Part shown: positions 1 through 44,481 of the stretch, piece by piece | Layout: every line of letters starts with the position of its first letter | Numbering within the stretch: position 1 is the first letter of the stretch | Source: Hysterangium stoloniferum | Taxonomy: Eukaryota; Basidiomycota; Agaricomycetes; Hysterangiales; Hysterangiaceae | Direction of reading: 5' to 3' | DNA: 64,000 nt | NCBI GenBank assembly: GCA_015178975.1 | Contig: WHVD01000182.1 | Location: forward strand, 1-64,000 | Made by a program: the position numbers and the translations under genes | Notes under the pieces: generated by a model | What the model was told of the DNA's origin: nothing | Database searches by the model: none | What the model saw: only the letters and a program-made list of their open reading frames with translations

Positions 1-3000
1 GAAAGTAAGAGGCCTCGAATCCAATACCCTCGTCCCAGTCGTCTGATGAAGGAGGATACTACAATCCTTTATCGAAAACGGGATCCTCCCAGTGGTTACT
101 CTAGCATAGGAGTTGCAGCGCTCCATGTTTTCGGTCATGTAGGAACTCCCGATTCACCCAAACGCGTTAAAATTCGAATGGACACGGGAGCGGATCTTTC
201 CCTTATATCGGAGGAATTCTACAAGGAACTGCAGGGCATGTATAAGTTGAAACAAGGACTCAAATTACGTCTAATTCAGCTCACGGGTAACGCTAAGGTT
301 ATCGGATATGTTAATGTCCCCATTTACCTGGAGGACGACAGTGGAACGTTACTGAAGTTCGCGGCTGAAACTTATGTCGTTAGAGGAATGACGGTGCCAA
401 TTCTTTTGGGAGAAGACTTCCATATTAATTATGAAATTGGTACTCTAAGAGATCAGCCGTTGGGATCTAGACTTATTCTCCCGGGACGACAGGGTTTTAT
501 TCCAGCCAGCTCTTCTAAGGAACCTCAACCTTTGACCTTCACCGTCAATAAGGCCCTTTCGGGAAGCATGAGAAGGAGTCATCCAAACTCACCTCTCTCC
601 CCGATAAAGGTGTGCGTACTGAAAGAGTCGCGCGAGCCTTGGAGGATTGCACTATCGATCCAGAGTCAGCCAGACTAGTGCCTATTTTTGTTGAAGATCT
701 AAAGGGCGAGGAATGGATTGTTGAAGGAATCGTACTGCAAAACGAGGACGGTTCTATATTAGCCACACCAATCACGGCAATTTCAAGGAATAGTGCGGCA
801 GTACCTTTAGCCAATCCATCACTAACCCCTAAGACTATCCGACGAGGGGAGACAATAGGGATAATTCATGACCCTGCTCGTTGGGCTCACAAGCCCAGGT
901 CACTCGAGGAGAAAAGTTTAATGGTAGCAGGCGCGACCAAGATCGCACACCTTATTGAAAGTCTCTCTCAACTTGAGGAGGACCGTCAAGTCGCCTCAGA
1001 AAGACCTAAGCCACCTGTTGAACCAGAGATTGCAGACGATTTCGAACCGCCTGGTCCTAAGACGGCTGCAGTGGCTGATAATGAGGAATTTGCCTCAGAG
1101 GATCTTCACAAGTTAGTCAATTTGGGACCGGATATACCAACGGAGGTCCTGCCACGTCTCAGATCAGTTTTGACTGAGAACGTTAAGGCTTTCGGAGTCG
1201 ACGGACGGTTAGGGCAAGTGGAATGTAGAGTCCCTGTCCCCTTGAAAGAGGGCGCTCAGCCCATATCCATGCCTATGTTCCCCTCGTCCCCTGCCAATAG
1301 GAGAGTTATAGACGAGCAAATGGATACCTGGTTCGAACAGGGTGTCATTGAGCCATCTAAAAGCCCCTGGGGAGCGCCAGCCTTTGTAGTATATCGCAAT
1401 GGTAAACCGCGGGTGGTCATCGACTATCGGAAACTTAACCATCTCACTGTTCCAGATGAATTCCCTTTACCACGTCAATCGGAGATTATGCAAGCGCTGT
1501 CGGGGTCAAATGTTCTTTCTTCTTTCGATGCGCTGGCCGGGTTTACTCAATTAGAAATGTTGGAGGACGATAAGCCCAAAACAGCCTTTAGATCCCATAG
1601 AGGGCTGTGGCAATTTAAAAGGATGCCATTTGGGCTCAGAAACGGCCCCTCTACATTTCAGCGCGTCATGCAAACGGTTCTAGCACCCTACTTGTGGATT
1701 TTTTGTTTAGTCTACATCGATGACATAGTCATATTCTCTAAGAACTGGGATGATCATTTGCTTCACCTGAATCAGGTGCTTGGCGCTATCAGCTTCGGCC
1801 GGTATTACTCTCTCTCCCAAGAAATGTTTTATCGGATATAATTCGATATTGTTATTGGGTCATAAAGTATCTAGGCTGGGTTTTTCAACCCATCAAGAAA
1901 AGGTTCGCGCTATATTGGAATTGGCCCCACCCACTAAGGTTTCTGATCTACAACGGTTTCTTGGAATGGTCCTTTACTTTTCAGCATATATACCATTTTA
2001 TTCATGGATGGTGTCCCCTTTATTCTCGCTCCTAAAAAAGGGAACACCTTGGACGTGGACTGCTGAACATGTCCGAGCTTATGAGGATGTTAAAACCGCA
2101 TTAGGATCAGCTCCAGTGTTGGGACATCCAGTTAGTGGGATGCCCTACCGATTGTATACGGACGCTTCGGATTTTGCCTTGGGTTGTTGCCTCCAACAAG
2201 TCCAGAAGATGGCTTTAGGAGATTTAGTGGATACAAAAATCTACGCCCAAGCCAAATTGGCTTTTGACCGTGCGCAGGACGTGCCATCCTTTGTTCATCG
2301 GTACAAAACCAAACAGCCCGAGATTGAGTGGTCGGATTCGTGGGGATCCACTTTTGAGGCGACCGAAGTTACTGTTGAACGAGTCATTGCATATTGGAGT
2401 CGCACGCTGAAAAGCGCGGAGCGTAACTATTCTGCTACTGAACGGGAAGCATTAGCAGCAAAGGAGGGACTGGTCCACTTTCAACCTTTCATTGAAGGTG
2501 AACATGTCCTGCTCATTACGGACCATGCAGCTCTGCAATGGGCTAGATCTTACGAGAACACTAATCGTCGACTAGCCGCATGGGGGGCGATATACGCTGC
2601 ATTTCCAGGTCTCGAGATTTTGCATCGAGCAGGGAGAGTTCACAGCAACGTGGATCCACTGTCCAGACTCCCTCGGGTACCAGCCTTCGTGAGCCCTATT
2701 AGAGATGATTTGCAGGCTATCACCTCGACTTCTCTGGACAAGAATACTGAGGAAAAACTATGGAAAGACGAACCCGCTAAGAAGGCGGTCTTCTCTACCA
2801 TACTCGATTCTATGGAGCCTTTTGGAGTAACTCAAAAGGTCCGACGGTCAGAATGGGATACTCATAACGCAATAAGGAATGACCAGGAAGACGAGTCCGA
2901 CTTCGCATTGCGTCATCCTCAGCTACTAATCAGCATCGAGGAGGGATATATAAAGAAATTTCTAGAGGGTTATTCAAAGGACCCGGTTTTCAGGAATCTC

Positions 3001-4778
3001 TATGCTTTAGATACCCCTTCACCCAACGCAGTTGTTACTCCTTCTCACTACTTCGTGGGAGCAAACCGACTCCTGTACTTTCGCGACTCGGACTGGAAAA
3101 GTCGAGTCTGTGTACCCAGAACCATGATTAACTCGATTCTAAGGTTGGTGCATGATAACCCTTTTGAGGGAGCACACGCCGGAGGCCAGCGGTTGTTCAA
3201 CCTGATGAAAGACCGGTTCTTTTGGCCGAGAATGCTACAAGATTGCGTGTCGTACGCGCGTACCTGCGATATCTGCCAAAAAACCAAAGTCGATCGCACC
3301 GCTCATCAAGGAGCCCTCAGACCGGCTGACGTACCTTTTAGGCCATTCGAGGTAGTTTCTATGGACTTGATCACTGGACTACCCGATTCAGGAAAGGATT
3401 CGTATTCCGCAGTCTTCGTTGCCGTTGATAAATTGACGCGCTACGCTATTACAATACCTACCTTTTCGAACCTTACCAGCTGAAGGATTCGCACGAATAT
3501 TTGTCAAACAGGTAGCAAGCCCCTTCGGACTGCCCTCTCGAATAATCTGTGACCGGGATAAGAGATGGACCTGCAGGTTTTGGCGGGAAGTCTGTAAGAT
3601 CTATGGTACCACCCTTGCGGTATCTTCGGCTCATCATCCTCAAACGGATGGGCAAACGGAGAATATGAACGCGACCATAGAACAGATGCTTCGAGCCTAT
3701 TGTGCCTCTGCTAAAGAAAGCTGGTCCCAGTGGATTGAGGTAGTCGTTCACGCATACAACTCGACTGTTCACAGTTCCACAAACTACGCCCCGGCCTTCT
3801 TATTAATGGGATACCTCCCAAGAGGAATGTCTCGAGTTCTAGGAGGTGACGAGCCCCTAGTTCCTAGAGAACTATCAGACAGCCCTATGGCCGACCAATG
3901 GATCCTCGAGCTAGAAAATCATCGGCAGATGGCGCGGGATTCCATCGCTCGAGCCCAAGAGATTCAAGCACGAGCGTATAACAAGAAGCAAAGACCTGTA
4001 GAAGATATCTCTGAGGGAGACTTTGTATTGGTGAATCCCCACTCCCTCGAACTGGTGGAAGTCAAGGGAACGGGGAAGAAACTGATACAAAGACGGATTG
4101 GACCATTCGAGGTCCTTGAGAAATTGAACTCTCAAGTATTTAGGCTTAAGATTCCCCCGGAGTATCCTATGCATCCAGTCATTAATCGGGATCATCTGCG
4201 GAAATATCAACCCTCTCCTTCCAAGCTAGGTCCGAGACCCCAACTTGAGAACCTAAGAGAGTTGAAATCAGATCACGAAGAATATGAAGTCGAAGCTATT
4301 GTTGGACATAGGAAACAGCGAAATCGTCTGCTATTTAGGGTGCGCTGGAAAGGTTATGGACCCGAGGAGGATTCGTGGTTAAGCAGCACTGACCTTAGAA
4401 ACGCTCCGGCACTTTTGAGGGCATACAAGGCGCTGTTCAACATTTAACGGGATATATGCACTCAAGGAATCATCTATTCCCTCTCTTTTGTAACTTCCTT
4501 TCAGAAATATCTCAGTTATTCGGTGAGCCATCTCGTTGGCTTTTATTCTTTTTCATTTTTCTATCCCTTCTGTCGATTGGGACAACCATTAATTGGCAGC
4601 GGACACATTTCCCTAAAACCCGGGCACAATTAATGAATTCTATTTAACGACCAACCGAGCGGAGTTTCAATTCAATATATATAAAAAAAAAGTACACGTA
4701 AATTCGCATAAATTTTCTTTATCTTTCACACCACGTCCTTCCCTCTATCTTCAACTTCACCACTTTTATCGCGTTATA

Positions 4779-15276: not shown

Positions 15277-17055
15277 TAGGGCTCCAGGGTCACTTTCCGA
15301 ATCGACGAACACCCAGACTCGGGAGCTGGGGAGGAAATCATCATGTTCCCAACTGGTGGGCAATTTATAGGCACCCTCCTCCACAAAGAGGGTATACCGG
15401 TCTTTACGGAGCCATAGAAACGGGCGCTTCTCAGAGGCACAGCGATGTGCAGCATATATTTGCCAAAGAGTTTTCCCTTTTCCAAGGATGAGGACAGCAG
15501 CAAGAGCCTATTATCGAATGCCTAGAGGGGACCATATATCCCCTTCTGTGAGTGGTACAGTGAGGGACAAAACCCTTCCAATAATTTTTAGTTGTGCAAA
15601 GATTCTTGAATAACTCAAGAACCACTGTAGATACAGACCTGAAATTTGGTGGTTGGTTAGGTCTATATGTTATCTATATGCCATTAAAATATTATGACAT
15701 AAGCACTGGTATTTTCCATGCTATAAATAAAATAATAATAAAATCACATTGGAAGAGTTTTGTCCCTGGTATAAAACGAACAGATGCTGTGAGGTATCAG
15801 CATTATCTCATAATGTTCTCTTAATTTTCTTTGAGTTATTTAATATTTTCTCGAATTTTTATTGTATTTTTTACTATGTTTATTGTGAAAAATAGGCCTT
15901 ATTCCTTTTAACTTCGCATAAATAATAGCATATATGGACTCATATTATGCTATTATTACTTAATTAATTTATTATAATTTTTAACTAATTACTTATATTT
16001 TATCTACTTAGTTATTGCTTTTCGGCACCTTGCTGCAGCTTGTTTGCGCATTTTTGAAGTCATGTGACTTATTAGATAAGCCTCCGGTGTCGGGATGTCA
16101 CACAGGTCACGGATGTGACTACCCGAGTCATTAATTGATTCCGCCGACTCATCGTTTGCTTCCGTCCCGGGACTGCGGCCTTGAACCTTCATATTCAAGC
16201 AAGAGGTTAGAACCCTTGTCTCAGAGAGGGGAATCATGTGATAAATAAAGGGTAAATAATAAGTAGAATATGAGGTCATTATGATCTAACTAGTGACCTC
16301 ATAAACTAAATAATTAGCTAATCATTTAGTTATCAAAATGTATATAAGGAGGGCCAAGTTTCCAATAAAATCATCCTATCTCACTCACATTTTACTGCAC
16401 AGCTCAGAAGCTTATCTAATCATCCTAAGGACAATAATAGCCTTAGTCTGATACACTCACTGCAAGCACCTACACTTGCAGCATCTTGAATCTTTGTCAG
16501 CAACTCTTGAACTTAGCTAATCATCTAAGTTCCCCCAGCCTTACAGCTACCCTTTATGCTTATTAATTACATAATAAACCTAATAATTATCTAAGTATCC
16601 TTACTGAATTTCCCTGCCAATACTAGATTATTCAAGGCCCAGCCCTAAGTTTATTGAATTAATCAAGTACAAGCACTCAGATAATCCAATACAAGTTATT
16701 TTCTCTATTAATAAATTATTTAACACCTTGTTAAATAGCTATTAATAGTTACAAATACGCATACAAGAATCCGAAGCTTTATATCAAGTCTCTGCTAAGT
16801 TACTGCGCATATATTCAGCTTCTAGCCCCTATTCTCAAGGAATAGTTCTTTTATTTGCTAAAAGAGTCATACACAGTTCTATTGAACCTTTCAATAATCA
16901 AAATAAGCATTGATTTGAGTTGTTTAAGCTTAATAGCACAGCTCATTAATCGATCAGTATTTAAATTACTGGACCTTTGCTTATTTTATTGTTGAAGCTC
17001 TGTGACATTATACCATATATTGAGCTATCTAAGAGAATCCCCTGAATACATTACA
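15277..17055. mobile_element. 1.8-kb AT-rich insertion inside the second Ty3/Gypsy element
   Basis: Comparison with the first element shows reverse transcriptase sequence stopping at about 15276 and resuming at 17057. The insert holds a 280-bp left part I cannot place, a small inverted-repeat element (15558-15768), and an AT-rich right part with a TATA-like TATATAAGG near 16341 followed by a pyrimidine-rich stretch. That resembles an LTR or other promoter-bearing repeat, but no matching second copy is in the window. No target duplication is certain. Family unknown. Confidence 0.6.
15558..15768. mobile_element. MITE-like inverted-repeat element, about 211 bp
   Basis: Ends are inverted repeats of about 20 bp: the left end contains GGGACAAAACCCTTCCAAT and the right end contains ATTGGAAGAGTTTTGTCCC. 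TA dinucleotides flank the ends (15556-15557 and 15770-15771), as for Tc1/mariner-type non-autonomous elements. A 7-bp-arm palindrome, TTCTTGA/TCAAGAA, lies inside near 15605. There is no coding capacity. Confidence 0.6.
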
Positions 17056-20000
17056 GATGCCTTTCGGATTGAGGAACGGACATTCCATTTTCCAGCGAGT
17101 CATGCAAAACATGCTGGCACCCTATCTGTGGATATTCTGTCTAGTCTACATAGATGATATAGTAATCTTTTCTAAGACCTGGGAGGATCATATTGAACAC
17201 CTGGACCGAGTATTACAAGCAATAATTTCAGCTGGCATCACTCTTTCTCCAAAAAAATGCTATGTAGGCTACAACTCTATTCTCCTTCTTGGACACAAGG
17301 TGTCGTGGTTAGGCTTTTCGACCCACCAAGAGAAAGTACGAGCCATATCGGAACTAGCAACCCCAACTAAGGTGTCTGAGCTTCAACGTTTTCTGGGTAT
17401 GGTATTGTACTTCTCACCCTACATATCCTTCTATGCATGGACTGTATCCCTGCTCTTCTCGCTACTCAAAAAGGGCACGCAGTGGTCTTAGGGAGTAGAC
17501 CAGGAACGAGCCTTTAACGATGTCAAGGCAGCCCTGAGCTCTTCTCCAGTTCTAGCACATCCTGCAATTGGAATGCCCTACCATCTCTACATGGATGCCT
17601 CTGACTTTGCCCTAGGCTGCTGTCTGCAGCAAGTACAAAAAATGACTCTACGGGATCTAAAGAACACGAAGATCTATACCCAAGTGAAATCAGCATTCGA
17701 GCAGTCAAAACCAGTGCCAACATTTGTCACCCATTTTAAGACCAAGGTTCCCAAGATCACTTGGACAGACTCCTGGGTGAAAACATTCGAGGATACTTGC
17801 GTTACAGTAGAGCACGTTATCGCTTACTGGGGTCATACCCTCAAGAAACCAGAATGCAACTATTCAGCCACAGAGTGGGAAGCATTAGCTGCTAAGGAAG
17901 GCCTGGTTCATTTTCAACCATTCGTGGAAGGGGAGCACATACTCCTCATCATGGACCATGCTGCTTTACAATGGGCCAGGTCATACAAGAACACCAATCA
18001 ACAACTAGCCACACGGGGGGCAGTGTATGCAGCATACCCAGGCCTCGAAATACTACATCGTGCTGGACGAGTACACAGTAACATCAATCCCCTATCTAGA
18101 CTACCACGAGTACCCCACTCAGTGAGTCCAGCTGGAGATGATCTCCTGACAATCGTGTCAAGCTCACTCAGCAAGGGAACTGAGGAGAAACCACAGGAGG
18201 ATAATCCCACGAGGAGAGCCGTCTTTGTCACACAACGAGAACTAGTAGAACCCATCGGAACTCCAGAGGACACCTCACAAACCAAATGGGATTTGTATAA
18301 CCTCCCCAGAGACGATGAAGTGGACGAATCGTTATTCTTTTCATTAAACCTTCAGCTGCTCGTAAGCATCAATGAAAGATTCCTAAAAGAGTTCTCGGAA
18401 GGGTATCAGAAGGACCCCACCTTCAGAAGCTACTACGTCAAGGAACCGAAATCCCCAAATGCTGTAGCTACCCCTTCACATTTTTTCATCGGAGAAAAGG
18501 GACTGTTGTATTTTCGCGATTCAGACTGGAAAAGTCGGATCTGTGTTCCTAACAATATGACAACCACAATTCTAAAGCTGATACATGATAATCCCTTCAA
18601 AGGAGCTCACACAGGAGGGTGTAGACTATTCCTGCTCATGAAAGACCACTTCTTCTGGCCTAGAATGTTACAGGATTGTGCGGTGTATGCTCGCAGTTGT
18701 GACACCTGTCAGAAGACAAAAATTGATCACTCCGCACTGCAGGGAGCCCTCAGACCAGCTGATGTACCTTCTAAGCCATTCGAAGTAGTCTCCATGGATC
18801 TCATAACCAGACTACCAACTTCCGGCAGCGACTCTTACTCGGCCATTTTCATGGTGGTCGACAAGCTGACACACTTTGTTATCTGTGAATGCACCTCTTC
18901 TAACTTATCCGCTGAAGGATTCGCACAGATCTTCATAAACCGAGTGGCGTCACCTTTCAGACTACCCTCCAGGATTATCTGTGATAGAGACAAAAGGTGG
19001 ACCTGTAGGTTCTGGAGGGAAGTTTGCAAGATATATGGAACTGCTCTAGCCGTCTCTTCTTCTCACCACCCTCAGATGGACAGACAGACAGAAAATATGA
19101 ACACCACCCTCAAACAAATGCTGAGGGCTTACTGCTCATCAGCCAAGGAAGAATGGTCGAAATGGATTGGGATAGTAGCCAACACTTACAACTCCACCAT
19201 TCATAGTTCGACTAGATATGTTCCCGCCTTCCTCTTAATGGGGTACTTACCAAGGGGAATGTCCAGGGTACTAGGAGGAGACAATCCTATAGTCCCCAGG
19301 GAACTGTCTGAAACTCCTATGGTGGACTCATGGATTGTGGAATTGGAAAGTCACAGACAAATGGCGAGGGACTCAATCGCCTGAGCACAAGAAACCCAAG
19401 CTCAATCCTACAACAAGCATTGAAAACTGGTCAAGGAAATCTCGGAGAGGGATCTAGTATTAGTCAACCCCCATTCCTTAGAATTGGTAGAAATTAAGGG
19501 TAGTGGAAGGAAACTAATCCAAAGATGCATCGGACCATTTCAGGTCCTGGAAAAAATTAATTCTCAAGTCTTTAGACTCAAAATACCCCCAGAGTACCAA
19601 ATGCACCCCGTCATTAATCAAGCCCACCTTAAGAAATATCACTCATCCCTGGAAGTGTTTGGCCCTAGGGAACTACTCAAGAACCCCAGAGAGCTAAGTT
19701 CAAACAAGGAAGAATACGAAGTCGAAGCCATTACTGGCCACATGAAACTTCAAAATCATCTGCTTTTTTGAATCAGGTGGAAAGGCTATGGACCCGAAGA
19801 AGACTCCTGGCTAAACAGCACTGACCTCCAAAATGCCCCAGCTCTACTCAGAGCATACAAGACGCTGCATCAGATTTGATGATGGGTATATGCAGTCTCA
19901 CCAAGAACCCAGAACCACTTCCCTCCCGAGGATGCAGTCTATTTTCCTCACTCTACTCGACAATTAACTCTAATTTTAACTTTTATTTCCTTTTTCCAAA

Positions 20001-20869: not shown

Positions 20870-21752
20870 CCTCAGACGTTGTTCCACCAACGCTGAGCTT
20901 ACTTTATTATCCAGCCACAGTTAATTGCCTTGTGTAGGATACAGTTACTTGACACTGTGCTTAGTAATTGTTCATCACGTGAGCCCACACGACTTTATGT
21001 AACAGCGCCACATTTACAGAAAAGGCCGACTACTACAAGGGTATGGTAATATTCAACTATATCAATGCTGTATTAATGAAAAACATAAACGAGCGGAACG
21101 GAGCTCAGCCGCCTAGACTGTTCCTTGCACTAGTGGTAATGTGACTAGCCAGTTATATTAAACTAGGAAGACATGCCTCTCTCTATATAAAAGTCCATAT
21201 GGAGACTAGATTTGCCTCGTTGTAATTGTATGCTAATAGATAGGCGGTTTGTTTCGGAACCGCGTTAGGTCAAGGGGTTTAAAATTGTTTTTCCAACATC
21301 ATTGAATGAGAAATGAACGGAAAAATTATTTACAAACTGTACAGTCATATGTCTCCTTATAGTAGTCTCACATGTCCTATTACGGAAAGTGATGAGGAAT
21401 ACATTGTTGCTCCCTTTTGGGCTTGGATTAAAGGAAGGATATCTCATGGTAGATAGATCTTCTTGGTGCGCCTTTCCTGATCATAGAATCGCGTGCTTAG
21501 CTTCTCCGCATGTGGCTCTCCTCAAAAAAATGCCGAGGTAGGCGAGATGGCTATCAGAAAAATCTCTAATTTCATCACAGCCGGTTGCATTCAATTGGTT
21601 GATAAATGAACTGCTAGAAGCTAGCGTCCGAAAAATTATCTGTTTGATTTTGAATAAGTGTCGAAAACGCGGGTGTATAAACTAGCTCACCCTTTCTGCT
21701 AAAACACCTTGCCACCCCCCCCCCCCCCCCACACACACACAATCATCTTATT

Positions 21753-23379
21753 ATGATCGCACCCACCACCCCACCGGCGCCATCATTGTGAGTTACTAAT
21801 TACTAATGTCCTCGGTTTCTCATATCCCAGACTATCTGTCTTTGTACTGACCACATGATGGCAACGTCTAGACCCTTACCTCGCATCTATGAGGATGTGT
21901 CGGGGATATCCAATGCAGAATACATGTAAGCCCATATATGATAGTATTTGTGTTGATGTTAATTTTCTCTTCGCAATCCCCAGACCTCCCCCCCCCCCCC
22001 AATGCCATTCCGGTATATGTAAGCTTCTGTCTGTAATCATACCGACTATGTGACAACGACAACGTCTAGACCCTTACCCCACATTTATGAGGATGAGTCG
22101 GGGATATCCAATGCAGAATACATGTAAGCTCATATCTAACAGTATTTGTGTTGATGTTAATTTTCTCTTCGCAATCCCCAGACCGCCCCCCCCAATGCCA
22201 TTCCGGTATATGTAAGTTTCTGTCTGTAATCATACCGACTATGTGACAACGACAACGTCTAGACCCTTACCCCCCATCTATGAGGATGAGTCGGGGATAT
22301 CCGAAGCAGAGTACATGTAAGCCCATATCTAATAGTATTTGTGTTGATGTTCATTTTCTCTTCGCAATCCCCAGACCGCCCCCCCCAATGCCATTCCGGT
22401 ATATGTAAGTTTCTCTCTGTAATCATACAGACTATGTGACAACGACAACGTCTAGACCCTTACCCCCCATTTATGAGGATGGGTCTGGGATATCCGATGC
22501 AGAGTACATGTAAGTTCATATCTAATAGTATTTGTGTTGATGTTAATTTTCTCTTCGCAATCTCCAGACTGCCCCCCCCAATGCCATTCCGGTATATGTA
22601 AGTTTCTCTCTGTAACCATACCGACTATGTGACGACGACAACGTCTAGACCCCTGCCTCCAATTGGTGAGGACGAGTCGGTGAAATGTGCGTGTTGCGGT
22701 GCGAATATGTGAGCTCATGACGTCAATCTGTCCTCAATTGATACTAACTAGTTGTCACCACAGGGAACACGCCAATTACCACGCCTACCTGCCCAAGCTC
22801 AGGCTGGCGGGACACATGTAAGCTCATATCTAATAGTATTTGTGTTGATCTTAATTTTCCCTTCGCAACCCCCAGACCACTGCCCCCACTTCCTCCGGAT
22901 AGAGACAGGTGTGGTGCCGTGGTTCATGAGACCCCAGTGGATGTGTAAGTATGCCACATTAAGGCAATAACAGCACACTGACCATCAAATATATATTCGC
23001 TTTACAGGAGATGCTCGGCCGTGGTGCCCCACAGGGATGCCATTGAAGTTCGAGCGTTCCGTCCCTCCGAGGGTTTGCCCAGAGCCCAAGCAACTGTACC
23101 GTCAAGGTGTGTTGAGGCCACATATATGTCTTGCAATCCATTGATAATTAATCAAACTCCCTTTTTGTTACCTTGACAGGTTTATTTCAGACAGGTCTCA
23201 AGTTACCGAGCCTGTTTTCCTTACAAATGGTCGACGGCGCACCGATGTAAGTATTAACAAACAAAGTATTTATTAAACTATTAATGCCGCTACATAAACA
23301 GGAGCGTCACCACCGACCAACGTATAACCATTCGGTTCCGATAATGCCTCAGGAACACAAAGGTACCCCCCGGGCATAA
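21753..23379 (+). CDS. Mini-exon repeat protein gene, left copy (15 exons)
   Basis: I recognise no family. Reading GT..AG introns gives exons 21753-21787, 21872-21925, 21984-22018, 22070-22123, 22182-22211, 22263-22316, 22375-22404, 22456-22509, 22568-22597, 22649-22708, 22764-22817, 22876-22944, 23008-23106, 23180-23246 and 23302-23379 (TAA). Exons alternate 54 nt and 30 nt in the repeat part. Nearly every junction splits a codon after base two, so the repeat reads IPPPPMPFRY then IPLPPIYEDESGISxAEY. The tail is non-repetitive, with a CACC pair and an Arg-rich end. No signal peptide or membrane segment is seen. The first 30-nt exon is 35 nt here because of a long C run, which breaks the frame in this copy unless it is a sequencing error. 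Without that, the product is about 265 aa. The right copy keeps the frame throughout. A pyrimidine tract and (CA)n sit just before the ATG. Confidence 0.7.
21872..22597 (+). repeat. Tandem array of about 190-bp mini-exon units, four units
   Basis: Each unit is a 54-nt exon, a 56-58 nt intron, a 30-nt exon and a 51-nt intron. Introns of each class are almost identical between units, so the array grew by duplicating exon-intron blocks. A fifth, diverged unit continues to 22944, where the intron at 22818-22875 is still recognisable between non-repetitive exons. Confidence 0.9.
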
Positions 23380-24539
23380 CTGGGACACTTGGCAATGGAC
23401 TGGCAGGCGGAGAAGCGTCCGCTGTCATGTCTGTTTTATCTTTCAAAATTCAGCTCCTAACTTTCTCTCCTACCACCTCCGCGAAGCATGTAGTCTGGAC
23501 ACAATTTGTTAGCCATGTATTTACCCTTGTACATGATCATTTTTGCAACGGGAGGATCGTAACCTATTCCGTATGTTGGTGACAATCGATGGGAAGCCGC
23601 ACAACGCACTGACCCAAGACATCACCATGCAAATTTTGCCAAGCGTTACGGTTACGTCACCCATGCATAAATAAAGAATTCTGTCATTCTCGTTTGGGAT
23701 TGACCTCCGATCTTACCCTGTTTCCCTGAAGCTAAATACTGAAGTACATGTCAATGAAAGTAGGTGTCTATGAAAAGGGAAACTGCGTTGCAGTTCATTT
23801 TCAACCAAGCTGATGGTTACCTTACAATTGTGATTTCTTTTGCTCACATGATCCTGAGTTCATACGAGATCACTTTGTGAGTCCTATTTCAGATTAGATA
23901 CTATTCTTGTATGTTTTTTTCTCTTTTCTTTTGAGAAGGTGGCAATATTCTTTGGGAAGGTAAGGTAAAGGAGAAAAGTGTCAAAAGGGGGGTAATTGGA
24001 AAGAAGGACGACAATGTGCCGCCGGTTTCCTGCTGAATGTGTTCTTTTGATTTGAGGTCCATAGAATACATCTAGCATACCTATTAATGTATACTCCCTA
24101 GTTTGTCGATGCATTTAATAACCGAATAACATTTCATAACAATAATATGACTCATTTGATTTTTCTCCTTGTAAATGTATACATTTTATTCCAATAGTAG
24201 TATCCACCGCGCTGAGTGCGCCCTTCTGGAGTGGCGAGGAAGGCCGGAACGTGAGCTCATTGTCGTCAGCGACGAGCACGGCAATGCAAAGCGAGAGTGC
24301 CATGATGATGTGTGATGTGGTGGGTGGGGGTGAAAGTCCCAACTGATTGTCCATCAAATAAATCAAATATCCACCTGATAACATAGTATAACCCCAAAAA
24401 GAGCACACCTGTCCGTGAGCATCTTCAACAGCTCGCAACACAAACATCAGTAAATCCCAACATATGGAGCGTCCCGTTTTCGCAGAATTATCTGTGAAAG
24501 AGGTCCATCGCAACAAGGGGACAAATTAGCCGAGGGCTA
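23380..24539. other. Intergenic part of the duplicated segment
   Basis: No supported gene. A reading frame on the minus strand (24115-24516) is not preserved in the right copy, where an insertion of about 9 bp changes its frame, so I take it as non-coding. The corresponding stretch in the right copy is 27904-29075. Confidence 0.6.
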
Positions 24540-24706
24540 CCCACGCCATCATTGTGAGCTGTTGATGGCCTCGATTCAACATGTCCTAGAATGTCTGTCT
24601 TTGTACTGACTATATGATGGCCCCATCTAGATCGCTACCCCGCATTCCCAGTGATGTTAGGAGCTACCGCGCACCTGCGAATCTCGCTGTTGAAACGGCC
24701 GACTAG
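24540..24706 (+). pseudogene. Truncated relative of the mini-exon gene 5' end (left copy)
   Basis: CGCCATCATT followed by GTGAG at 24554 and a TAG acceptor at 24630 repeats the exon 1/intron 1/exon 2 start of the gene at 21753. The following exon (24631-24706) reads SLPRIPSDV, comparable with PLPRIYEDV, and soon stops. No repeat units follow. It is a diverged, shortened relative in the same orientation, present in both segment copies, so it predates the segment duplication. Confidence 0.55.
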
Positions 24707-24849
24707 TCCTACCGCTACTGCGGTTTACATTATCACTTCGAGGGCGTATTTGATTAGGTGATAGATGGTTATTATCCGCCGGACTACTGACAACGGGATG
24801 TTCCTGGTTTCTACGATGTGTCGCCGTTTCAAACCGTCCTGGCTTCCTT

Positions 24850-25252
24850 GATTTACTGCGTGTGAGTTGCTTCAACATTCCTTACTCGCTTGTGTGAGCT
24901 CGCGGGGGTGTGTTGGAATACGAGCGCTACATAAGCTCGTAACACATATCCCTTTGTTCTTTGTTTCTTTATTCCCTTTGTTCTATCCCTTTTGTTGCCC
25001 CGTTTCGTATTCTATTTTAGAAGACATATATAATTAGCCTAGTGCTCATGTATCTACTTATTCGTTTGCCTAATCTTACTACAAGATATACGCACAAACG
25101 GAATTTAAATACTGCTCTTATAGTTCATTCGGAGCTTCTATATTTTATTTCAACACCCATTTCTATGCTTTAAAGGAAGCAAATTTGTTTGCACCGTGGA
25201 GGCGGCAGCAATGTCGATGGTCTAATCAGACGCCTCCAGCCACAGGCTCTAT
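24850..25252 (+). mobile_element. Ty1/copia 3' end with LTR between the two segment copies
   Basis: A G-rich tract (CGCGGGGGTG) precedes an LTR-like stretch from TGTTGGAATACGAGCG (24911) to TTTCAACA (25155), 245 bp. This is the arrangement of a copia 3' end. The following 97 bp are unassigned. No flanking target duplication is found. Sitting exactly at the junction of the duplicated segments, it may have been involved in the rearrangement. Confidence 0.6.
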
Positions 25253-26090
25253 AGTTAATTGCCTTGTGTAGGATACAGTTACTTGACACTGTGCTTAGTA
25301 ATTGTTCATCACGTGAGCCCACACGACTTTATGTAACAGCGCCACATTTACACTGGAAAAGGCCGACTACTACAAGGGGTACGGTAATATTCAACTATAT
25401 CAATGCTGTATTAATGAAAAACATAAAAAAGCGGAATGGAGCTCAGCCGCCTAGACTGTTCCTTGCACTAGTGGTAATGTGACTAGCCAGTTATATTAAA
25501 CTAGGAAGACATGCCTCTCTCTATATAAAAGTCCATATGGAGACTAGATTTGCCTCGTTGTAATTGTATGCTAATAGATAGGCGGTTTGTTTCGGAACCG
25601 CGTTAGGTCAAGGGGTTTAAAATTGTTTTTCCAACATCATTGAATGAGAAATGAACGGAAAAATTATTTACAAACTGTACAGTCATATGTCTCTTTATAG
25701 CAGTCTCACATGTTCTATTACGGAAAGTGATGAGGAGTACATGGTTGCTCCCTTTTGGGCTTGGACTAAAGGAAGGGTATCTCATGGGTAGATAGATCTT
25801 CTTGGTGCGCCTTTCCTGATCATAGAATCGCGTGCTTAGCTTCTCCGCATGTGGCTCTCCTCAAAAAAATGCCGAAGTAGGCGAGATGGCTATCAGAAAA
25901 ATCTCTAATTTCATCACAGCCGGTTGCATTCAATTGGTTGATAAATGAACTGCTAGAAGCTAGCGTCCGAAAAATTATCTGTTTGATTTTGAATAAGTGT
26001 CGAAAACGCGGGTGTATAAACTAGCTCACCCTTTCTGCTAAAACACCTTGCCACCCCCCCCCCCCCCCCCACACACACAATCATCTTATT

Positions 26091-27903
26091 ATGATCGCAC
26101 CCACCACCCCACCGGCGCCATCATTGTGAGTTACTAATTACTAATGTCCTCGGTTTCTCATATCCCAGACTATCTGTCTTTGTACTGACCACATGATGGC
26201 AACGTCTAGACCCTTACCTCGCATCTATGAAGATGTGTCAGGGATATCCGCTGCAGAATACATGTAAGCCCATATATAATAGTATTTGTGTTGATGTTAA
26301 TTTTCTCTTCGCAATCCCCAGACCGCCCCCCCCAATGCCATTCCGGTATATGTAAGCTTCTCTCTGTAATCATACCGACTATGTGACAACGACAACGTCT
26401 AGACCCTTACCCCACATTTATGAGGATGAGTCGGGGATATCCAATGCAGAATACATGTAAGCTCATATCTAACAGTATTTGTGTTGATGTTAATTTTCTC
26501 TTCGCAATCCCCAGACCGCCCCCTCCAATGCCATTCCGGTATATGTAAGCTTCTGTCTGTAATCATACCGACTATGTGACAACGACAACGTCTAGACCCT
26601 TACCCCCCATCTATGAGGATGAGTCGGGGATATCCCATGCAGAGTACATGTAAGCCCATATCTAATAGTATTTGTGTTGATGTTCATTTTCTCTTCGCAA
26701 TCCCCAGACCGCCCCCCCCAATGCCATTCCGGTATATGTAAGTTTCTCTCTGTAATCATACAGACTATGTGACAACGACAACGTCTAGACCCTTACCCCC
26801 CATCTATGAGGATGAGTCGGGGATATCCCATGCAGAGTACATGTAAGCCCATATCTAATAGTATTTGTGTTGATGTTCATTTTCTCTTCGCAATCTCCAG
26901 ACCGCCCCCCCCAATGCCATTCCGGTATATGTAAGTTTCTCTCTGTAATCATACAGACTATGTGACAACGACAACGTCTAGACCCTTACCCCCCATTTAT
27001 GAGGATGGGTCTGGGATATCCGATGCAGAGTACATGTAAGTTCATATCTAATAGTATTTGTGTTGATGTTAATTTTCTCTTCGCAATCTCCAGACTGCCC
27101 CCCCCAATGCCATTCCGGTATATGTAAGTTTCTCTCTGTAACCATACCGACTATGTGACGACGACAACGTCTAGATCCCTGCCTCCAATTGGTGAGGACG
27201 AGTCGGTGAAATGTGCGTGTTGCGGTGCGAATATGTGAGCTCATGACGTCAATCTGTCCTCAATTGATACTAACTAGTTGTCACCACAGGGAACACGCCA
27301 ATTACCACGCCTACCTGCCCAAGCTCAGGCTGGCGGGACACATGTAAGCTCATATCTAATAGTATTTGTGTTGATCTTAATTTTCCCTTCGCAACCCCCA
27401 GACCACTGCCCCCACTTCCTCCGGATAGAGACAGGTGTGGTGCCGTGGTTCATGAGACCCCAGTGGATGTGTAAGTATGCCACATTAAGGCAATAACAGC
27501 ACACTGACCATCAAATATATATTCGCTTTACAGGAGATGCTCGGCCGTGGTGCCCCACAGGGATGCCATTGAAGTTCGAGCGTTCCGTCCCTCCGAGGGT
27601 TTTCCCAGAGCCCGAACTGTACTGTCAAGGTGTGTTGAGGTCACATATATGTCTTGCAATCCATTGATAATTAATCAAACTCCCTTTTTGTTACCTTGAC
27701 AGGTTTATTTCAGACAGGTCTCAAGTTACCGAGCCTGTTTTCCTTACAAATGGTCGACGGCGCACCGATGTAAGTATTAACCAAACAAAGTATTTATTAA
27801 ACTACTAATGCCGCTACATAAACAGGAGCGTCACCACCGACCAACGATTAACCATCTGGTTCCGATAATGCCTCGGGAACACAAAGGTACCCCCCGGGCA
27901 TAA
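26091..27903 (+). CDS. Mini-exon repeat protein gene, right copy (17 exons)
   Basis: Exons: 26091-26125, 26210-26263, 26322-26351, 26403-26456, 26515-26544, 26596-26649, 26708-26737, 26789-26842, 26901-26930, 26982-27035, 27094-27123, 27175-27234, 27290-27343, 27402-27470, 27534-27629, 27703-27769, 27826-27903. All repeat exons are 54 or 30 nt, and every join up to the fifteenth exon falls after the second codon base (AT|A or AT|G), so any whole exon can be gained or skipped without changing frame. The sum is 879 nt, 292 aa, ending in TAA. Evidence that it is coding: the frame is open through 17 exons, and against the left copy the exon at 27534 differs by exactly 3 nt. A perfect TACTAAC branch site lies before the exon at 27290. 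Repeat: YIPPPPMPFRYIPLPP plus an acidic YEDESGIS segment. No known domain, so function is unknown. The Pro-rich part could bind SH3 or WW domains, which is only a guess. Confidence 0.78.
26210..27123 (+). repeat. Tandem array of mini-exon units, five units
   Basis: Same unit as at 21872-22597, with five copies. Units three and four are almost identical to each other (both have ISHAEY), marking the extra duplication in this copy. Confidence 0.9.
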
Positions 27904-29075
27904 CTGGGACACTTGGCAATGGACTGGCAGGCGGAGAAACGTCCGCTGTCATGTCTGTTTTATCTTTCAAAATTCAGCTCCTAACTTTCTCTCCTACCAC
28001 CTCCGCGAAGCATGTAGTCTGGACACAATTTGTTAGCCATGTATTTACCCTTGTACATGATCATTTTTGCAACGGGAGGATCGTAACCTATTGCGCATGT
28101 TGGTGACAATCGATGGGAAGCCGCACAACGCACTGACCCAAGACATCACCATGCAAATTTTGCCAAGCGTTACGGTTACGTCACCCATGCATAAATAAAG
28201 AATTCTGTCATTCTCGTTTGGGATTGACCTCCGATCTTACCCTGTTTCCCTGAAGCTAAATACTGAAGTACATGTCAATGAAAGTAGGTGTCTATGAAAA
28301 GGGAAACTGCGTTGCAGTTCATTTTCAACCAAGCTGATGGTTACCTTACAATTGTGATTTCTTTTGCTCACATGATCCTGAGTTCATACGAGATCACTTT
28401 GTGAGTCCTATTTCAGATTAGATACTATTCTTGTATGTTTTTTTCTCTTTTCTTTTGAGAAGGTGGCAATATTCTTTGGGAAGGTAAGGTAAAGGAGAAA
28501 AGTGTCAAAAGGGGGGTAATTGGAAAGAAGGACGACAATGTGCCGCCGGTTTCCTGCTGAATGTGTTCTTTTGATTTGAGATCCATAGAATACATCTAGC
28601 ATACCTATTAATGTATACTCCCTAGTTTGTCGATGCATTTAATAACCGAATAACATTCCATAACAACAATATGACTTATTTGATTTTTCTCCTTGTAAAT
28701 GTATACATTTTATTCCAATAGTAGTATCCACCGCTGACAAAAGCGCTGAGTGCGCCCTTCTGGAGTGGCGAGGAAGGCCGGAACGTGAGCTCATTGTCGT
28801 CAGCGGCGAGCACGGCAATACAAAGCGAGAGTGCCATGATAATGTGTGATGTGGTGGGTGGGGGTGAAAGTCCCAACCGATTGTCCATCAAATAAATCGA
28901 ATATCCACCTGATAACATAGTATAACCCAAAAAAGAGCACACCAACACCATGAGCATCTTCAACAGCTCGCAACACAAACATCAGTAAATCCCAACATAT
29001 GGAGCATCCCGTTCTCGCAGAATTATCTGTGAAAGAGGTCCATCGCAACAAGGGGACAAATTAGCCGAGGGCTAC

Positions 29076-29241
29076 CCACGCCATCATTGTGAGCTGTTGA
29101 TGGCCTCGATTCAACATGTCCTAGAATGTCTGTCTTTATACTGACTATATGATGGCAACATCTAGATCGCTACCCCGCATTCCCAGTGATGTTAGGAGCT
29201 ACCGTGCACCTGCGAATCTCGCTGTTGAAACGGCCGACTAG
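29076..29241 (+). pseudogene. Truncated relative of the mini-exon gene 5' end (right copy)
   Basis: Counterpart of the fragment at 24540-24706: donor GTGAG at 29089, TAG acceptor ending at 29165, exon 29166-29241. It ends at the same stop as the left copy. Confidence 0.55.
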
Positions 29242-29411
29242 TCCTACCGCTACTGCGGTTTACATTATCACTTCGAGGGCGTATTTAATTAGGTGATAGA
29301 TGATTATTATCCGCCGGACTACTGACAACGGGATGTTCCTGGTTTCTACGATGTGTCGCCGTTTCAAACCGTCCTGGCTTCTTGGAATAACATTGGCGAG
29401 GTATTCCATGA

Positions 29412-39574: not shown

Positions 39575-41127
39575 ATGCTTCTAACTGTGCCACTCATCGC
39601 ATTAGCCTCCGCTGCCAGCGCTGCACACTCATTTCCACCAGCAGGCTCACATAACCGCAAGTCATTCTTTGGCCGAAGAGCGAATACCCCAAAGTTCGTG
39701 GCGACTTCATGGTTCGCAGGCTGGCATGTCAATACAGGATTCCCAGTGTCGGATATTTCATGGGATAAATACACCCACCTATCATATTCCTTTGCGTAGG
39801 TACCTGATATCTATCCATCATACATACAGGCTCAGTTCGTGATTTCTGTACAGAACAACGACACCAGACGTGAATGCTCTTGCAATTTCAGCCGACGACG
39901 AGACAACCATCCCCGCATTTGTCGCTGCGGCTCATGAGAATAATGTGTCTGTTTCCATCGCTGTTGGTGGATGGACAGGTTCCCGATTCATGTCGACGGC
40001 GGTCGGTTCAGCCCAAAACCGCACAGCATTCGTCAAGACACTCTCCGACTTCGTTAGCAAGTACAAGTTTGACGGGATCGACTTTGAGTGAGTAGTTCGA
40101 CCGCCGCAGAACATGTCAGTTTCTCATACTAAATGGCTATGGAGCTGGGAACAGCCTGGTAAACAAGCAATCGGGTGCAATATTGTTTCTCCAGAAGACA
40201 CCGCAAACTACCTCCGCCTCCTCCAGGAGCTGCGCAGATTCAAAGCTACATCTGGGCTCATTCTCACAGTGGCAGCGCCTGCCGCCCCCTTTGTTGACTC
40301 GACGGGCGTGCCGTCGACGTCCGTCTCGGGGTTTGCCAAGGTGTTGGACTACATCAAAATCATGAACTACGATGTCTGGGGACCATGGACGTCGGTTCTT
40401 GGCCCCAATTCCCCACTAGAGGACGCGTGTGCTCCACCCCAGTACCAGCTCGGTTCAGCTGTAGCAGCCGTTGCGGCGTGGAAAAACGCGGGCATGCCCT
40501 TGGATAAGATAGTACTTGGAGTCGCGGGATACGGATACGGCTACACCGTCGCGCCGGGCGACGCGATGCAAGGCACAGACCTTGCAGCATACCCCAAATT
40601 TAATGCAACAAACGCGCCTCCGGGCGATGCTTGGTCTGGCGAGGCCGGCCCGGATATTTGTGGCGTCCAGACACCCGCAGGCAGTAAATGACCCAATCTC
40701 TTTCTTTGTTTATGTTTTTTTTTCAAGTAATCTGACATCCCCCCTCCGCCAGGCACTTTCGCTTTCCGAGGACTCGTAGCCGGCGGATTCCTCGACACGG
40801 AAGGCAAGCCAACCAAAAATATTCAATACCGCTTCGACAATTGTTCCCAAACTGTAAGCTCTCACCGCTCGTTCACACCGCATTTCTATTGATTATTATG
40901 CCATGCTATAGGCCTACGTATACGACCCGTCGAAGCACATCGAAGTCTCATTTGATGATGTCGCCGCGTTCACTGCCAAAGGGAAATTCATCAAAGAGAA
41001 TTCATTACGTGGCTTTGCCTTGTGGGAGACGGGCGGTGACTATGATGACCTGCTTATTAATGGTGTCCGCTCAGGAGCTGGTCTCACCACGCCCACGTCC
41101 CATCCTTGTGATCCCATCCCGTCTTAA
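39575..41127 (+). CDS. Secreted GH18 (chitinase-like) protein, copy 1, 436 aa
   Basis: Family 18 hydrolases cleave beta-1,4-GlcNAc links in chitin and related glycans. Exons: 39575-39795, 39854-40087, 40145-40683, 40753-40853, 40912-41127 (1311 nt in frame). The N-terminus MLLTVPLIALASAASA is a signal peptide. The start of the barrel reads WFAGWHV, the third-strand motif is VSIAVGGWTGSRF (SxGG loosely kept), and the catalytic strand is FDGIDF joined across the intron to DWEQPG, giving the full DGIDFDWE, so the acid/base Glu and both Asp are present. MNYDVWGPW and the final ALWETGGDYDD match the later barrel strands. No carbohydrate-binding module is seen. The active-site codon for the second Asp is split by the second intron. 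A tandem paralogue starts 1.8 kb downstream. Confidence 0.92.
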
Positions 41128-42930: not shown

Positions 42931-44481
42931 ATGTATGGTGTGTGGATGCTTCTCATTGCATCACTCATCGCATTAGCCTCTACCGGCGCCATGCGCTCGA
43001 CGCCACCCGCAGAGTCAGATAACCACAACTCATCGTTGGGCCGGAGGACGAGTGCCCCAGAATTCGTGGCGGCTGCATGGTTCGTCGGCTGGCACGCCAC
43101 ACCATTCCCAGTGGAGAAAATTCCATGGAATAGATACACCCACATGTCATTTTTCGCTGCGTAGGTGCTTGGTACTTGTCCCGTCGCGGATAAAGGCTCA
43201 GTGCGTGGTGGCGCTGTACAGATCAATGACACCAGACGTGCATACCCTGGCAATTACACACCAGGACGACAACCAGACTATCCCCGAATTTGTCGCTGCG
43301 GCTCATAAGAATAATGTGCCCGTCTCTATCTCCATCGGTGGATGGGCAGGGTCGCGATACATGTCGACGGCGGTTGGCTCGGCCGAAAACCGCACAGCGT
43401 TCGTCAACACCCTCTCCACCCTGGTCCAGAAGTACAACTTTGACGGACTTGACTTCAAGTGAGTAAGTCCGACCGCGGAAGAACGTCGCAGACTCTCATG
43501 CTGCATGCACACACCAGCTGGGAATACCCGACAACACAGGGCAGCGCCGAGTGCAAGATCACCGCGCCACAGGACACGGCGAACTTCCTCCTCTTGCTGC
43601 AGGAGCTCCGCAGATTCGCCGCCACATCCCAGCTCATCCTCACCGCGGCAGCGCCAGGGAGCCCAGTCGTGGACGCGGAGGGCCGCCCGCCCGCGGCACC
43701 TTCCGCCGCCGACTTCGCGGGCGTGCTGGACTACATCACCATCATGAACTACAATGTCTGGGGCCCGTGGGCGCCGGTTCTTGGCCCCTCCTCCCCGCTG
43801 GACGACGCGTGTGCGCCAGGCCCGTACCAGCGTGGCTCCGCTGCAAAAGCGGTGGCAGCGTGGAAAGAGGCGGGCATGCCCGCGGACAAGATCGTACTCG
43901 GAGTCGCGAGCTACGGACACGGCTACAGCATCGCGCCAAGCGACGCGATCCAGGGCACGGCTCTTGCACCATATCCCAAATTTGATGCGACAAAACGCCC
44001 TCTGGGCGATGTTTGGTCTGGCGAAGCTGGCCTAGATATCTGTGGTGCCACGACACCAGCAGGCAGTCAGTAAATAAACCCGTCGTTTTATTTTAATTCT
44101 CAAGTTGGGCCTGACTCACACAACTCCCATCAGGCACGTTCAATTTCTGGTGGCTCGTAGACCGTGGCTTCCTCGATGAAAACGGCAGCCCTGCCAAAAA
44201 CATTCAATACCAATTCGACACCTGTTCCCAAACCGTAAGCGCTCGCTCGTCGGCCCCCGCACTATAAAAAATTTCATTGATCACGCCCATGGCTACAGGC
44301 CTACGTGTACGACCCATTCAGCAACACCGAAGTCTCATTCGACGATATCGCCGCGTTCACTGCGAAAGGGAAGCTCATTAAGGAGAATTCGCTGCGTGGG
44401 TTTGCATTGTGGGAGGCTGGCGGTGACTATGGCGATCTGCTGCTCAGTGGTATCCGTTCGGGAGCTGGTCTACAAGCGTGA
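42931..44481 (+). CDS. Secreted GH18-like protein, copy 2, 432 aa, altered active site
   Basis: Exons: 42931-43160, 43222-43458, 43518-44065, 44134-44234, 44299-44481 (1299 nt in frame), the same five-exon plan and intron phases as copy 1. MYGVWMLLIASLIALAST is the signal peptide. VSISIGGWAGSRY keeps SIGG. The catalytic strand reads DGLDF then, across the intron, NWEYP: the codon split by the intron is AA|C here and GA|C in copy 1, so the last Asp of DxxDxDxE is Asn while the Glu remains. In studied chitinases this Asp positions the substrate N-acetyl group and its Asn mutants lose most activity, so I infer weak activity or a binding role. The frame is otherwise intact, against simple decay. 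Its third exon has higher GC than copy 1. Confidence 0.9.

Follow-up and report, generated by a model that had tools for sequence, protein, structure and literature searches.

Genes in which two exon types and two homogenised small introns alternate as one unit have been described in spider silk, namely MaSp2.1a and MaSp2.2a of Argiope, where introns of the same type are 94.3–99.7% identical within a gene; in the excerpts of the text at hand the authors were aware of no other eukaryotic gene with two homogenised intron types in alternation, and the term "intron phase" did not occur there (PMC9779670). Aphid bicycle genes, according to a similar excerpt, contain about 17 exons on average, with small internal exons almost all of phase 2, and two C-Y-C motifs in many members, with secretion and salivary expression as further traits (PMC9168663). 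In the open-licence PubMed Central literature, covered by titles and the starts of abstracts, which makes for a weak absence, no example of alternating homogenised introns was found outside spider silk and none in a fungus. Here we describe a gene family of the truffle-like, forest-dwelling basidiomycete Hysterangium stoloniferum, represented by two gene copies (copy 1 on the left, copy 2 on the right) at positions 21753–27903 of a stretch of 64,000 nt (positions 1 to 64,000 of contig WHVD01000182.1, assembly GCA_015178975.1), called the window below. Judged from the sequence, this is probably a young family that evolves by intron-guided in-frame block exchange and makes proline-rich proteins of variable valency, and it appears to be known so far from H. 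stoloniferum only.

The right gene copy (26091–27903, forward strand, as are its parts, the left copy, the relic at 24518–24660, and both tandem segments described below) was built exon by exon. Its 17 exons measure, from 5' to 3', 35, 54, 30, 54, 30, 54, 30, 54, 30, 54, 30, 60, 54, 69, 96, 67, and 78 nt and stay open for 292 amino acids, after which a stop follows; all 16 introns are GT-AG, and 15 of them are in phase 2, the final one being in phase 0. Exon 1 (26091–26125), whose region is kept in family copies, carries the ATG, and a TATAAA was spotted by eye at 26015–26020, about 70 nt upstream. In the repeat array (26210–27123) five 54-nt exons (E54) alternate with five 30-nt exons (E30), and the introns alternate likewise between 58 nt (IA) and 51 nt (IB), giving five units of 193 nt; the non-repeated 3' exons of 60, 54, 69, 96, 67, and 78 nt (27175–27903) are separated by introns of 55, 58, 63, and 73 nt in phase 2 and of 56 nt in phase 0. 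GC content is high in the exons (54.7%) and low in the introns (38.0%). Tandem Repeats Finder returned the same 193-nt unit in 4.2 and 5.1 copies, and since this length is not divisible by three and the three frames of unspliced copy 2 are broken by 37, 29, and 23 stops, respectively, the unit is coding only when spliced. The public prediction BU17DRAFT_70957 (P0001) of H. stoloniferum is letter-identical to the copy 2 product across all 292 residues. The exon number, lengths, phases, and product length given in the preliminary description of this copy are correct.

Uniform phase combined with small exons occurs in bicycle genes, elastin, and Schistosoma MEGs, so the kind of architecture is already known, and the 54-bp exons of collagen and the 28-residue PEVK exons of titin are similar precedents. 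Bicycle genes, like the present family, have many small internal exons almost all of phase 2 and are lineage-specific and fast-evolving; unlike them, the predicted proteins here show no CYC motif (by eye) and no signal-peptide-like N-terminus, and one subfamily forms a regular two-exon array (PMC9168663, in part). Short symmetric exons that permit in-frame skipping are shared with the MEGs, but these, in the part of the paper used, have about 80% of their coding sequence in exons of 6–36 bp and mostly secreted products, whereas in copy 2 exons of at most 36 nt account for 185 of 879 coding nt, and hydropathy gives no hint of a signal peptide (PMC5825161). Elastin, as far as the excerpt goes, also alternates domain types with uniform-phase borders, the phase being 1 there and 2 here, but is an animal matrix protein of different composition (PMC3458006). 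The SP7-like effectors of arbuscular mycorrhizal fungi are likewise mycorrhizal repeat proteins in which a conserved intron helped to trace the family; that intron lies before the first repeat, a signal peptide is present, and no intron per repeat unit is described in the accessible portion of the text (PMC11333574). The likeness to MaSp2 extends over the alternation of two exon and two intron types, the near-identity of introns within a gene, and the clustering of paralogues, where introns are proposed to guide unequal crossing over (PMC9779670, in part). MaSp2 is spider silk, while here a fungal orphan with 30- and 54-nt exons is seen, and no spidroin homology emerged in protein searches. 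The preliminary statement that no described family has this repeat holds for the protein, since no Pfam cut-off was reached and matches were confined to H. stoloniferum, but not for the architecture, with precedents in MaSp2, elastin, and bicycle genes; the combination of features and the kingdom appear to be new. The present example of alternating homogenised introns lies in a kingdom and a protein unrelated to spider silk.

Genome DNA searches with the repeat unit, the 5' and 3' ends, and a block of the C268 cluster revealed at least 14 gene-sized copies on four contigs, of which C268 holds eight, C93 three, C520 two, and C30 one, together with partial or decayed pieces on C118 (124–125k and 66k), C67, C486, and C268:678.7k, all counts being lower bounds. 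The preliminary description, with its two gene copies, understated the family, which includes the C268 cluster with exons other than the 54/30 repeat and the phase kept the same. The genes were parsed by a profile parser blind to reading frame, yet in 10 of the 12 parsed genes no internal stop interrupts the expected frame (unspliced, 11–37 stops per frame), which takes the pattern beyond chance. Phase 2 was found at 99 of 102 introns in the nine parses without exon-length shifts, and in the remaining three cases it is always the last intron of the C93/C520 subfamily that departs; in the shifted genes copy 1, C93c, and C30 the counts (3/14, 7/10, and 2/10) are low because phase is summed cumulatively past poly-C or other length changes. 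The gene at C268 701.4k, built by hand, has 12 exons with phase 2 at 11 of 11 introns, and its internal exons of 51, 57, 66, 60, 75, 57, 66, 60, 63, and 66 nt are not repeats of the 54/30 type. Six of the 14 copies look intact, with an ATG, GT-AG at all introns, and a frame open into the last exon (copy 2, C520a, C520b, and C268 694, 701, and 712). A splice-compatible gene structure conserved in many paralogues can be read from these predicted genes: almost all internal exons have a length divisible by three, and almost all introns split the codon behind its second base. The predicted junctions of the C93, C520, and C268 genes read AT|GTAAG...AG|A.

Whole-block differences that remain in frame are seen at no fewer than three registers, namely the 193-nt unit, a six-exon block, and a form of that block lacking two exons; the common phase of the junctions keeps the frame intact in all of them. 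At the first register, copy 2 carries as its units 3 and 4 (26596–26981) two blocks of E54-IA-E30-IB that lie at a distance of 0.005 (0.5% over 193 nt) from each other and of 0.010 and 0.016 from unit 3 of copy 1, and since both match this single unit, the difference between the copies amounts to a single complete 193-nt block, in accordance with the earlier claim that introns lie inside the repeat unit and the array expands by in-frame exon-intron blocks. The two units of C93c are nearest a first and a last unit, respectively, and units 2–4 of C520b are nearest one another; units are more alike within a gene than between genes. In C268 694.7k and 712.9k the six-exon block occurs twice, the second time starting with an internal 33-nt exon, which the parser aligned to exon 1 and which is 48–72% identical to exon 1 of the first block. 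Between the block copies introns y1, y2, y3/y7, and y5/y9 are 85–93% and exons x2–x6 68–90% identical, ranges that exclude the weak pairs x1/E1', y4/y8, and y6/y10; introns y6/y10 are 65% and y4/y8 48–55% identical, and the low value of the latter suggests that this intron was exchanged. The C268 701.4k gene carries the doubled block minus two of its exons.

Coding constraint was assessed by a frame control, in which the identical aligned exons were read in all three frames and the ratio of nonsynonymous to synonymous substitution rates (dN/dS) was compared. Three divergent C268 pairs gave 0.23, 0.39, and 0.38 with no stops in the true frame and 0.83–1.50 with 3–7 stops in the wrong frames, while three C93/C520 pairs, which share genes, gave 0.56, 0.62, and 0.52 versus 0.93–2.36; fuller alignments yielded 0.58–0.83 for six C93-versus-C520 pairs and 0.30–0.96 for fifteen C268 pairs (no frame control). 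Coding constraint is thus visible in the divergent pairs, and in the true frame only. Outside poly-C runs the exon length changes among 11 genes are multiples of three (E54 -3, E30 -15, E96 3, x1 -3, x6 -3, x7 3), with the exception of E78 (-1), and the introns of the same genes changed by 7, 9, 1, 1, 5 or 6, 1, 1, 1, and 3 nt. Between subfamilies the odd phase of the last intron is accounted for by a difference of 1 nt between E67 and x11, and the other four exons differ by 0, 12, 9, and 33 or 36 nt. Positive selection on the repeat exons is not claimed, the dN/dS of divergent pairs being below 1 and synonymous sites being fast as well. A chance open frame in a satellite was rejected on the strength of the frame controls.

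The divergence of exons and introns takes another course between genes than within them. Within genes E54, E30, IA, and IB all differ by 4.3–5.8% (on average, pooled over five genes, 4.3% for IA and 4.7% for IB), but between C93 and C520 genes E54 differs by 18.7% (first units excluded) and E30 by 15.1%, compared with 5.6% for IA and 8.7% for IB, in pooled unit comparisons whose pairs are not independent. With single representatives, 11/84 exon versus 5/109 intron positions differ for the unit consensus (p = 0.04) and 19/84 versus 7/109 for the last unit (p = 0.001), whereas non-coding flanks differ at 69/1107 and non-repeat introns at 10/305, slightly below the flanks (p = 0.049). Across subfamilies copy 2 and C268 712.9k differ at 118/290 positions of five exons and 54/244 of four introns, the intron count excluding the weakly aligned IC/y7 (23/43 identical), which favours the interpretation preferred here; when the exons are restricted to the three better alignable, 58/180 differ (p = 0.026). 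In the upstream region (window 25531–26090) 141/493 positions differ from C268 712.9k, which is below the value of the exons. These figures may be taken to suggest that introns are conserved no less than exons, in keeping with a role as exchange tracts; short-intron constraint or intergenic gene conversion would fit intron conservation too. In the accessible text on MaSp2 the introns diverge fast between genes, whereas here they are more conserved than the repeat exons (PMC9779670).

According to the reading that we consider probable, near-identical introns would provide homologous tracts for unequal crossing over or gene conversion, and uniform phase would keep the products of exchange translatable, so that the number of protein modules could change at little cost. 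If true, the family offers a set of paralogues that differ in age and whose blocks can be counted, so that the guidance of in-frame repeat exchange by repetitive introns can be examined in it. A wider version is put forward tentatively, as being somewhat doubtful: the fungus may have evolved the alternating two-exon/two-intron architecture with uniform phase 2 independently, intron recombination and exon skipping together may give in-frame proteins with variable modules, and damaged exons (poly-C shifts, a lost acceptor) may be tolerated by skipping. A fungal gene family would then possess an inbuilt means of diversifying length, and this raises the question whether fungi vary proteins by symmetric mini-exons, as proposed for schistosome MEGs.

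Several observations weigh against the reading preferred here. Damage was noted in eight of the 14 gene-sized copies, namely copy 1, C93c, C30, and C268 698.9k, 705.0k, 707.3k, 710.1k, and 735.0k: C93c has an acceptor reading AA and two poly-C shifts, C268 698.9k and 705.0k lack the ATG and have lost the exon-1 donor (only 5 of 7 introns are GT-AG in each, and both are among the nine unshifted parses), C268 707.3k has GTG in place of ATG, and C30, with an exon of 73 nt where 69 are expected, was counted as damaged for want of a clean parse. The constrained C268 pairs involve such genes, two of them including 705.0k and the third 698.9k; three close C268 pairs (dN/dS 1.79, 1.10, and 0.76) bear no sign of constraint and are uninformative, and codon-position bias was non-significant in 9 of 9 pairs by simple counts. 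Within a subfamily, non-repeat exons and introns showed no significant difference in divergence in any of 9 pairs (p from 0.085 to 1), crossovers are placed in introns on grounds of similarity, and a YTRAY branch-like motif is missing from all five IB introns (51 nt) of copy 2. P0001 alone among ten public models equals the parse, the others agreeing in part, with omitted exons, different junctions, or different C-termini. The motif PxxPx[RK], discussed below, was not found in P0006, P0007, P0008, and P0010, and in P0009 it sits in an unrelated N-terminus.

Among the alternatives the one that survives best, though we regard it as unlikely, is a decaying family, coding until recently and now consisting mostly of unexpressed duplicates, in which block gains would be ordinary tandem-repeat instability. 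The damage just listed, the dN/dS of 0.76–1.79 in close pairs, and the Ty3-type retroelement-like open reading frames noticed by eye in the window speak for it, but six copies that look intact and the true-frame constraint in divergent pairs speak against it. Less probable still is that these are host-facing proteins, secreted or delivered by an ectomycorrhizal fungus, which as analogues of aphid bicycle effectors would diversify by phase-2 mini-exons. H. stoloniferum is indeed ectomycorrhizal, the family is orphan and clustered, its exon number and phase pattern are like those of bicycle genes, and divergence is faster in its repeat exons than in introns or flanks; however, a signal-peptide-like N-terminus (hydropathy only) and CYC motifs (by eye) are absent from the predicted proteins, and divergent pairs have dN/dS values below 1. 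That the two introns spread into the repeat as mobile, introner-like introns, not copied jointly with the exons, is very improbable: the greater similarity of introns than of repeat exons and the seemingly exchanged y4/y8 pair would suit such spread, but the 193-nt unit has its 36 matches (among the best candidates scored) exclusively in family loci, and adjoining exons were duplicated as blocks together with the introns. That this is a non-coding tandem repeat whose open frames arose by chance, to which a unit not divisible by three, poly-C shifts in some copies, and weak codon-position bias might point, is close to refuted by the 10 of 12 open spliced parses with closed wrong frames, the independent public gene model, and the frame-specific constraint.

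In protein searches with the 292-residue model, BU17DRAFT_70957 and five relatives were found, with a C268-subfamily protein three matches, and with an alignment of nine proteins ten in all, one of them new, every match being from H. stoloniferum; no match outside this species was obtained, two of the searches having scored the best word-sharing candidates and the database coverage of relatives being unchecked. Homology to known domains or solved structures was rejected, as Pfam gave nothing above its cut-off (for P0001 the best was DUF6296 with 15.3 bits, below 27.2; for the nine proteins DUF6296 in two, best E 0.02, and DUF7676 in one, E 0.1) and a PDB search gave no match. P0001 contains 19.9% proline and has no hydrophobic N-terminus by hydropathy; the highest N-terminal hydropathy, 1.33, is that of P0009, whose predicted N-terminus is unrelated to the family. 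Most 30-nt exons of the window subfamily encode PPPPMPFRY, in which the PxxPx[RK] of P0001 lies, and its PxxPxR is a motif of the SH3-ligand type. That the genes encode a proline-rich protein which stays inside the cell, is disordered for the most part, and owes its binding valency to the unit number is a guess from the predicted sequence, and rather an unlikely one.

The public models also differ from the parses in particular exons. P0007 departs from its parse in two residues, at two junctions; P0006, the model of the C30 copy, leaves out the 34-nt equivalent of copy 1 exon 3; P0005 leaves out the 60-nt exon of the C93 copy at 76k, before which the acceptor reads AA; and P0008 and P0009 leave out a 66-nt exon where no defect was noticed. 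Omission of such exons is frame-neutral because of the uniform intron phase, and the omissions seen in predictions would indicate only this neutrality. The original proposal that exons can be added, lost, or skipped in frame is supported for block differences, which are in frame, while skipping is possible by phase and is met with as omissions in several public predicted models.

The left gene copy (21753–23379) has 15 exons as parsed, with four E54-E30 units, and thereby shares the 54/30 anatomy ascribed to both copies, but in the assembly its frame is closed. An extended C run lengthens exon 3 (21984–22018, coordinates summed from segment lengths) from 30 to 35 nt, and the resulting frame shift leads to a stop within the 60-nt exon; without exon 3 the remaining frame is open, and the public model BU17DRAFT_70956 (P0002) leaves this exon out. 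Assembly errors in the poly-C lengths, which give exons of 35, 32, 31, and 34 nt in the family, are conceivable. As stated beforehand, one corresponding exon differs between the copies by exactly 3 nt, 99 nt in copy 1 and 96 nt in copy 2. Copy 1 lies in the first of two tandem segments (20919–24846) and copy 2 in the second (25253–29381), which is about 97% identical to the first, with self-matches of 20919–22686 to 25253–27019 and of 21862–24846 to 26393–29381.

On the 3' side of copy 1 a relic with sequence like exon 1 and intron 1 was seen (24518–24660), a second such relic lies at 29053–29195, and a third at G000:C486:341692-341886; they hold family exon 1 and the first intron, with only a fragment of the next exon, and in the C486 relic (L045) the promoter region, exon 1, and part of one exon are visible. 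Perhaps these are a shorter second gene type or leftovers of another copy. The fragments at C118:66k (L042, about 2680–3153) and C67:177k (L044, about 3518–3959) are very similar family 3' fragments with other weak parser hits in common, and perhaps they spread within a larger duplicated or mobile segment. A 1.3-kb sequence inside the C268:735k member (L041 1646–2942, about 736.1–737.4k) is also present in the window at 15784–17061 (90%) and is probably a transposable element insertion. A plasmid DNA search gave no match. By eye, the open reading frames at window 46–4447 and 17573–19384 resemble Ty3-type retroelement polyproteins (reverse transcriptase/integrase-like), and those at 40113–40691 and 43459–44073 form a similar pair of chitinase-like (GH18) appearance, possibly a tandem duplicate.

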